Source: Bdellovibrionales bacterium
GTDB taxonomy: Bacteria; Bdellovibrionota; UBA1018; CAIMNF01
DNA: 51,671 nucleotides
NCBI GenBank assembly: GCA_018969905.1
Contig: JAGWXK010000005.1
Span: forward strand, 1 to 51,671
Direction of reading: 5' to 3'
The notes under the pieces were generated by a model. It searched no databases and was not told the DNA's origin. It saw only the letters and a list, made by a program, of their open reading frames with translations. The position numbers and the translations under genes are program-made. Below are positions 11,542-12,871 of this stretch, piece by piece (the stretch's first letter is position 1; each line of letters opens with the position of its first letter).

Positions 11542-11667
11542 GCCCCATGAAATTGAGGTTGGCGGGGTGTGTTAAAAAGTATTTGTTTTCAGGGATTTGA
11601 CGTTTCCTGAATATTTAACTCAAGTTTAGTCAAGAACCTGCCGATCAGTCACTCAGGAGGATTCATC

Positions 11668-11892
11668 ATGGGAAAAGGAAAAAAACCGGAAATGGAAGTT
11701 GTGGGAGCGGAAGGGTGTAAGTGTGGGGGTTGCAAAAAGCCTCAGTTCAGATTCACGTTCTGTTCCGAGCACTATGATTGGTTCAAATTCGGATTGATCA
11801 CCAAAGCTGGTCAGAAAGTTACCGATTTTGATAAAAAGTTCGATCACTTCGTGGCTTACCAGGAGCGCATGAAGACCGCAAAAGCAGCATGA
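11668..11892 (+). CDS. Small Cys-rich putative zinc-binding protein
   Basis: 74 residues. CAGGAGG just upstream makes the ATG at 11668 convincing. The N-terminal part is basic (MGKGKK). It then carries C17, C19, C22, C32 and H35 in the pattern CxCxxC-x9-CxxH, which could bind zinc or iron. The following segment, HYDWFKFGLITKAG, is aromatic and unusual, and the C-terminal end is a charged helix. There is no signal peptide or membrane segment. I do not recognise a family. It is alone on its strand between a divergent acyltransferase gene and a structured intergenic element at 11912-12087, and the two could share a transcript. Confidence 0.7.
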   Translation: MGKGKKPEMEVVGAEGCKCGGCKKPQFRFTFCSEHYDWFKFGLITKAGQKVTDFDKKFDHFVAYQERMKTAKAA

Positions 11893-11911
11893 ACAATTAG
11901 AGCACCTTTAT

Positions 11912-12037
11912 CCCTGTGCGATGATCCGGAGGTGGGCGCGCAGGGAAGCCGGCTTTGGGTCCCTCGATCCCGGACCCGAAAAGATGTCTCGCCCTGTAAA
12001 CCAGGACAGAGACTCCAAGGCTGTACCCACCACCTCC
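11912..12037 (+). ncRNA. Candidate structured RNA element, family not recognised
   Basis: This 217-bp gap holds more pairing than chance intergenic DNA usually does. A closing stem pairs GGAGGTGG (11928-11935) with CCACCTCC (12030-12037). Inside, AGCC/TTGG (11947-11950, 11955-11958) can pair with CCAA/GGCT (12015-12022). This encloses two hairpins: GGGTCC/GGACCC (11957-11962/11972-11977) and GTCTC/GAGAC (11986-11990/12009-12013), the latter with an inner CCTG/CAGG and loop TAAAC. A rival hairpin, CCCTGTGCG/CGCGCAGGG (11912-11920/11937-11945), would place the 5' arm of the closing stem in its loop, so two folds exclude each other. It does not match tRNA, tmRNA, RNase P, SRP RNA or common riboswitch signatures I can check. 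Strand and boundaries are inferred from neighbours. Confidence 0.45.
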
Positions 12038-12044
12038 TCAGAGC

Positions 12045-12087
12045 GAAGGCTCGAAAGATGCGAAAGTTTCGTGTCTTTCGAGCCTTC
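12045..12087 (+). other. Strong 14-bp perfect hairpin upstream of the hydrolase gene
   Basis: GAAGGCTCGAAAGA (12045-12058) pairs perfectly with TCTTTCGAGCCTTC (12074-12087), and an inner CGAA/TTCG extends the stem. No T-run follows (AATATTCTATT), so it is not a classical intrinsic terminator. It ends 22 bp before the hydrolase ATG and may cap the upstream RNA or protect a transcript end. Confidence 0.7.
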
Positions 12088-12094
12088 AATATTC

Positions 12095-12100
12095 TATTAT
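12095..12100 (+). promoter_or_regulatory. Possible -10 element just ahead of the hydrolase start
   Basis: TATTAT matches the -10 consensus at 5 of 6 positions and ends 9 nt before the ATG at 12110, which has no Shine-Dalgarno sequence. Any -35 would fall inside the preceding hairpin and is not recognisable. Confidence 0.3.
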
Positions 12101-12109
12101 CAATGAATC

Positions 12110-12871
12110 ATGAAGTGGTTGATTCTACGAGGATTGGTAAGAGAGCAAAGACATTGGGGGGAGTTTCCAAATCATCTGAGGGATTCATTGAGGGAGAGGG
12201 ATCCTTCGGTGGAGATTCATATGCTTGATTTTCCCGGTTTCGGAACCGAATCCGATCGCCAGTCACCGTTCACTATTGATGAGATTGTGGATGATGTGAG
12301 GTTTCGTTGGAAAAATGTAAAGTGCGATCCCGAAGAGACCTGTTATCTCCTTGCGGTCTCCCTGGGGGGCATGGTGGCGATGAACTGGGTGTCCCGCTAT
12401 CCGGATGACTTTCACGGCTTGGCTCTCATCAACTCGAGCGCTACTGGACTCAGCCCTGTAACGAAACGGCTGAAGCCAAGGAATTATTCCAGAATTCTAT
12501 CTCTTTTTGCTAGCAGGGATGTGAAGACCCGTGAGCGAAAAATACTCGAAATGACAACCAACCTGAATGGAAAAAGCTTAGAGTTTCTTGCGCAAAAACA
12601 TGCTGGATTTGCGGAAAAGGTCAGGAAAAAAGACGCATTGGCGCAAATCGTTTCCGCCCTTAGGTTCAGAGCGCCCTCTGAAATCCTTGTCCCGCTAATG
12701 GTTCTTGGAGCCAAGGGAGACCAGCTGGTGGATGTTTCCTGCTCGGAGCAAATTGCAAAGAAATACGGAGGTCAACTCGAGTTGCATGAAACAGCGAACC
12801 ATGACCTCGCCACAGATGACAGTGCATGGGTCGTCAACAAACTTAAAGAATGGATTGTGGCAAATACTTGA
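12110..12871 (+). CDS. Alpha/beta-hydrolase fold protein
   Basis: 253 residues, cytosolic, no signal peptide. The catalytic triad can be read as S84 in the nucleophile elbow AVSLGG (82-87), D204 in AKGDQLVD and H231 in ETANHDLAT. The first small residue of the elbow is Ala instead of the usual Gly, which the fold tolerates. The N-terminal LRGLVREQRHWG resembles the oxyanion region of BioH and MenH-like esterases. The substrate is unknown. The ATG at 12110 gives a normal start of the first beta strand (MKWLILRG) but has no ribosome-binding site; a TATTAT element sits 9 nt upstream. It ends 11 bp before the end of the convergent gene. Confidence 0.8.
   Translation: MKWLILRGLVREQRHWGEFPNHLRDSLRERDPSVEIHMLDFPGFGTESDRQSPFTIDEIVDDVRFRWKNVKCDPEETCYLLAVSLGGMVAMNWVSRYPDDFHGLALINSSATGLSPVTKRLKPRNYSRILSLFASRDVKTRERKILEMTTNLNGKSLEFLAQKHAGFAEKVRKKDALAQIVSALRFRAPSEILVPLMVLGAKGDQLVDVSCSEQIAKKYGGQLELHETANHDLATDDSAWVVNKLKEWIVANT

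Follow-up and report, generated by a model that had tools for sequence, protein, structure and literature searches.

The gap downstream of a small-protein gene in a Bdellovibrionales genome contains a real and well-supported RNA family, which is new and absent from Rfam 15. This gap, located in the 51,671-nt stretch of contig JAGWXK010000005.1 (assembly GCA_018969905.1) that was analysed here and is called the window, is predicted to be the 3′ untranslated region (3′ UTR) of an mRNA that encodes a small C-C-C-H protein and is transcribed with sigma28, and it ends in an order-specific module composed of a hairpin, a mostly unpaired C-rich 20-nt motif and an intrinsic terminator. We lean slightly towards reading this module as a sigma28-controlled, 3′-UTR-derived regulatory RNA that acts on Shine-Dalgarno (SD) regions.

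The conserved module and its distribution

All features described here lie on the forward strand. The small gene (11668..11892; 74 aa, with the pattern C-x4-C-x9-C-x2-H and homologues in the phylum) is preceded by the SD sequence AGGAGG (11655..11660) and is found directly upstream of the RNA element, both presumably on the same transcript. The region that follows (11893-12109) folds at -85.8 kcal/mol, compared with -61.0 +/- 4.7 for shuffled sequences (z = -5.3; 0 of 200 shuffles as good), although this z-score owes part of its size to the long terminator hairpin at 12045-12087. In a search of the window against Rfam 15, the sole match at the gathering threshold was a distant tRNA and the relaxed threshold added nothing other than miRNA matches to the terminator hairpin that are due to chance, leaving no match for the element; BLAST against plasmids gave none either. 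A preliminary description of this DNA had proposed a structured RNA of no assigned family and suggested searching Rfam and related genomes; the fold energy and the Rfam result agree with that proposal, and the interval given there did not include the terminator hairpin.

In a BLAST comparison against 58 relatives, most of the gap matches two congeners only, and a stretch of 20-odd nucleotides (query 128-149) matches most genomes. This stretch corresponds to the 20-nt motif at 12020..12039 (GCUGUACCCACCACCUCCUC / GCTGTACCCACCACCTCCTC), which contains the anti-SD sequence CACCTCCT. The complementarity to SD sequences previously pointed out for ACCTCCT is supported and sits in the most conserved part of the element. 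Allowing 0-2 mismatches, the motif is found in 34 of the 291 sampled genomes of the phylum (22 genera), all belonging to one order of Bdellovibrionota and mostly with zero mismatches, while a reversed control pattern gave five scattered matches. The element was not found in the sampled genomes outside the window's order. Within the order, the first 12 letters are present in 47 of 55 genomes and 30 of 34 genera, usually once, and the later part is variable (ACCTCCTC, CACCTC, CCTCCTC or ACCACCTCC). When about 85,000 GTDB species genomes were scanned for exact copies, 26 loci came up, nearly all from metagenome-assembled genomes labelled Bdellovibrionales, Oligoflexia, Bacteriovoracaceae or similar, and 24 of the 26 have the small gene directly upstream. 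A record under the name Nitrosovibrio also has this small gene and is probably mislabelled. Two larger, fragmented genomes placed in the window's genus (G003 and G006) contain neither the small gene nor the motif, possibly as a result of lineage loss or binning problems.

The motif usually occurs as a single copy between a hairpin and the terminator, and it is predicted to be less paired than its surroundings (unpaired fraction 0.58 versus 0.41 for the context). A coding function for the motif was rejected, given that its spacing from the stop codon does not preserve frame and that its letters are invariant.

When all possible 5′ partners were searched, a helix ending exactly 4 nt 5′ of the motif was recovered in most loci. 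In most families its 5′ arm begins 5 nt before the stop codon of the small gene (AAG[UUGCG-stop...]), and in most genera the hairpin contains that stop codon. In the window's genus the 5′ arm begins 47-94 nt after the stop; the window's counterpart, H3 (about 11984..12015), was assigned by covariance model and covariation. Compensatory changes, which the preliminary description had named as a test, are plentiful in this hairpin: among 41 distinct sequences both sides changed in 8 of 9 pairs, with 67 both-sides-changed cells versus 30 +/- 4 in shuffles and a covariation score of 0.403 versus 0.180 shuffled and at most 0.120 slid, figures to be read with the caveats that the 5′ anchor of the genus members was picked by best helix and that the 5′ arm is also coding in other families. 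The choice of stop codon tracks the partner strand (GCGUAG/CUACGC, GCCUGA/UCAGGC, GCGUGA/UCACGC and GCGUAA/UUACGC). R1, a covariance model built on the hairpin and the motif, matches the window at 11981-12039 (E = 9.8e-11) and, with few exceptions, gives one strong match per genome within the order; outside the order there was no convincing match, the weak ones having E values of about 1e-3 or worse. A short partial match in G061 (E = 2e-5), on a contig different from the one with its small-gene copy, was judged to be chance. A CUG/CAG mini-stem closing the motif was also considered and dropped, as it is not kept in other families.

At 48 of 49 loci the motif is succeeded by a strong hairpin (the one exception is masked), and 45 have a T-rich tail. 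In the window this is a 20-bp intrinsic terminator hairpin (12045..12087), whose T tract is weak in the window species. The element has two properties expected of a 3′-UTR-derived sRNA: it is placed in the 3′ UTR downstream of a coding sequence and ends in an intrinsic terminator at 48 of 49 loci, and it carries a conserved seed predicted to be mostly unpaired. If the hairpin and terminator served only to protect the 3′ end, stabilising a short mRNA with no regulatory role, a motif flanked by hairpins on both sides would be expected, but 20 nearly invariant, mostly unpaired letters across the order would be left unexplained; we regard this as very improbable.

An alpha/beta-hydrolase gene is located 3′ of the element in the window (12110-12871), and a neighbour of this kind occurs in family f1 only. 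The position of the element directly upstream of this gene would suit a riboswitch or attenuator, and the preliminary description had envisaged a switch-like layout ahead of it. However, termination precedes the gene, and the core of the element is common to loci where unrelated DNA follows. We give this explanation almost no credence: a leader of the hydrolase gene is rejected by synteny and terminator, and the hydrolase is a neighbour in its own right, not a gene under the element's control.

Additional hairpins in the window's genus

Members of the window's genus have a longer 3′ UTR, which carries a hairpin, H1, together with a second covarying hairpin, H2. The 9-bp stem of H1 (11912..11945) is formed by CCCTGTGCG (11912-11920) and CGCGCAGGG (11937-11945) and includes one G-T pair; among congeners the stem sequence is replaced, pairing is preserved in most, and the loop stays G-rich. 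H2 (11954..11980) is supported by covariation in 10 congeners. The G-rich, SD-like segment of the H1 loop, GGAGGTGGG (11928..11936), is complementary to the motif, such that GGAGGTGG (11928-11935) and CCACCTCC (12030-12037) can form an 8-bp closing stem (-17.6 kcal/mol) with two hairpins, 11954-11980 and about 11984-12015, between its arms. The 9-bp hairpin, the closing stem and the two inner hairpins are all present where the preliminary description had placed them.

The loop and motif are complementary in most, not all, congeners. Contiguous pairing of 7-9 bp is found in six of nine tested members, and the other three show no excess over shuffled loops. A strong closing stem is present in 6 of 10 members of the window's genus and absent in other families, so it is not the core of the element but a local addition, which probably masks the motif in cis. 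Across relatives, the motif-adjacent hairpin is conserved alongside motif and terminator, and the closing stem is confined to one genus.

Nor do the two folds described earlier as mutually exclusive appear to exclude each other. Because the 5′ arm of the closing stem is a segment of the H1 loop and the 3′ strand of H1 follows directly, the geometry would allow both helices to coexist as an H-type pseudoknot. The element is not a riboswitch, and switching between two exclusive folds is not a conserved property of it. A CsrA-sponge function was set aside for H1, as the GGA of its loop is not retained in all congeners.

The sigma28-type promoter and possible targets

In the window, the small gene is preceded by a sigma28/FliA-type promoter, TCAAG-N16-CCGAT (11620..11645), recognised as a sequence match to the FliA consensus. 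The general pattern, TTAAG/TAAAG/TCAAG-N15-17-CCGAT, precedes 59 of 89 homologues of the small gene, compared with 0.008 expected per region. The mapped FliA consensus of Bdellovibrio bacteriovorus attack-phase genes is TTAAG-N16-CCGATA (PMC3627812). A FliA gene is encoded in the window's genome, which together with the promoter match places the element among candidate sigma28-dependent sRNAs. In the congener G002 the pattern is found before 34 of 2214 predicted genes, including two flagellin genes and one motA-like gene (names judged from the sequences). The small gene is probably switched on with the flagellum. Since the same promoter also precedes small-gene homologues without the motif, the association with sigma28 probably predates the RNA element.

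The segment CACCUCCU within the motif is identical to the anti-SD sequence of 16S rRNA, and the motif could therefore pair with ribosome-binding sites. No conserved full-length antisense target was found: complementary sites with up to three mismatches are about as frequent as for the reversed control, and the 12-nt complement recurs at the element itself only, bar scattered single matches. In a target ranking over 2.36 Mb of G002, the pairing of start regions with the motif did not exceed that with composition-matched shuffled motifs, and no target is put forward. Hfq (PF17209), whose presence would be expected for an Hfq-dependent sRNA, was detected in none of the 55 genomes of the order (0 of 55), although control genomes behaved as expected; an unusual Hfq could be missed by this search. 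Both the lack of a target and the apparent lack of Hfq, the most widespread helper of sRNAs, speak against a regulatory RNA of this kind.

A plausible mechanism for a regulatory RNA can be put together from these observations. The 3′ end could act after processing into a small RNA or while still attached to the mRNA. Its ACCACCUCCUC segment would pair with ribosome-binding sites that are rich in G on other mRNAs, whose translation would fall as the cell becomes flagellated. Where the hairpin holds the stop codon, as in most genera, it could be opened by ribosomes that complete the small protein, and processing at this point would release the small RNA. The hairpin inserted in the window's genus displays GGAGGUGGG and could mask the motif in cis through the pseudoknot, tuning its activity. 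With Hfq undetected, pairing probably does without it or relies on some other protein, perhaps, speculatively, the co-encoded one. In a broader and decidedly doubtful version, protein and RNA would form one module, in which the sigma28-driven transcript imitates the 3′ end of 16S rRNA and thereby reduces translation initiation in general during swimming, with the stop-codon hairpin coupling translation of the small protein to RNA activity. The stop-codon hairpin makes this specific coupling model directly testable.

The target could instead lie within the same transcript, with the motif pairing with the SD of its own mRNA and limiting translation of the small protein. The icaR 3′ UTR of Staphylococcus aureus is a precedent for such a cis-acting arrangement (PMC3868564), and the own SD region often complements the motif, with 8 nt (GAGGAGGT, -21.3 kcal/mol) in three congeners. 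However, the excess is small (-14.7 kcal/mol for the motif with its own start regions versus -13.0 for start regions matched in SD strength), the place of the best internal partner differs between species, and changes in the SD are not visibly matched to motif variants. We consider a cis-acting role unlikely.

Known systems and the small protein

As a candidate RNA acting on SD regions in trans, the element has precedents in the anti-SD sRNAs alpha-r14 and CcsR of alphaproteobacteria (PMC10746234, PMC10253847). It shares with them an ultraconserved, unpaired anti-SD motif and, with the CcsR loci, the order of small-protein gene, RNA and Rho-independent terminator; CcsR1-4 are co-transcribed with the small protein CcaF1. 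The element does not belong to these families. The motif of the alpha-r14/cuckoo/CcsR group, CCUCCUCCC, is placed in repeated hairpin loops, whereas CCACCACCUCCUC is present here in one copy, and where CcsR/CIN1 loci have a DUF1127 gene, the gene here encodes a C-C-C-H protein without a Pfam or NCBIfam family. The alpha-r14/CcsR promoter is of the RpoH or RpoD type rather than the sigma28 type, the phylum is different, and only the present element has a hairpin that overlaps the stop codon in most genera. This looks like an independent case of a small-protein gene combined with an anti-SD RNA, here under the motility sigma factor and apparently free of Hfq.

A precedent for the promoter exists in the sigma28-dependent UTR sRNAs of Escherichia coli (PMC10578931). 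UhpU, MotR, FliX and FlgO are likewise UTR-derived and under a sigma28-type promoter, but they have no sequence relation to the element and were studied with Hfq, which was undetected in the window's order. The icaR 3′ UTR also contains a C-rich motif able to pair with an SD; it acts on its own SD, whereas the own-SD complementarity of the element appears to be weak on average and not conserved. Closer in phylogeny, the attack-phase sRNAs of B. bacteriovorus and its merRNA come from the same phylum, and some are controlled by FliA. Unlike the element, merRNA contains a c-di-GMP riboswitch. The element represents a new RNA family, with strong comparative support, in an uncultured lineage related to predatory bacteria, among which few regulatory RNAs have been characterised.

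Pairing with SD sequences alone is an insufficient explanation of the motif, in which GCUGUACCCACC is strictly conserved beyond the anti-SD part. The invariance of this half points to a further partner, which could be an RNA or a protein. The motif might be a binding site for a protein, either the co-encoded C-C-C-H protein or another RNA-binding one, and this protein would govern how stable the transcript is or how it is processed. Such a site would account for an invariant half that exceeds the needs of SD pairing and for the lack of a recurrent complementary site, and the small protein is encoded alongside the motif. However, homologues of the small protein occur in 128 of the 291 genomes across the phylum, many without the RNA motif, and comparison of its predicted fold with the PDB gave nothing that hints at binding to RNA. 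We hold the protein-site explanation to be rather improbable and retain the regulatory RNA acting on SD regions as the preferred reading.

The small protein is zinc-finger-like, with four invariant Cys/His residues arranged as C-x4-C-x9-C-x2-H, and the Pfam and NCBIfam searches assigned it to no family. AlphaFold gave a model of moderate quality with two helices (pLDDT 75.6), which found no match in comparison with the PDB. The protein (11668-11892; loci L050-L138) ends in KVA or KAA in most of the phylum, even where the motif is absent. This ending resembles a protease-recognised tail, and the small protein might be short-lived.
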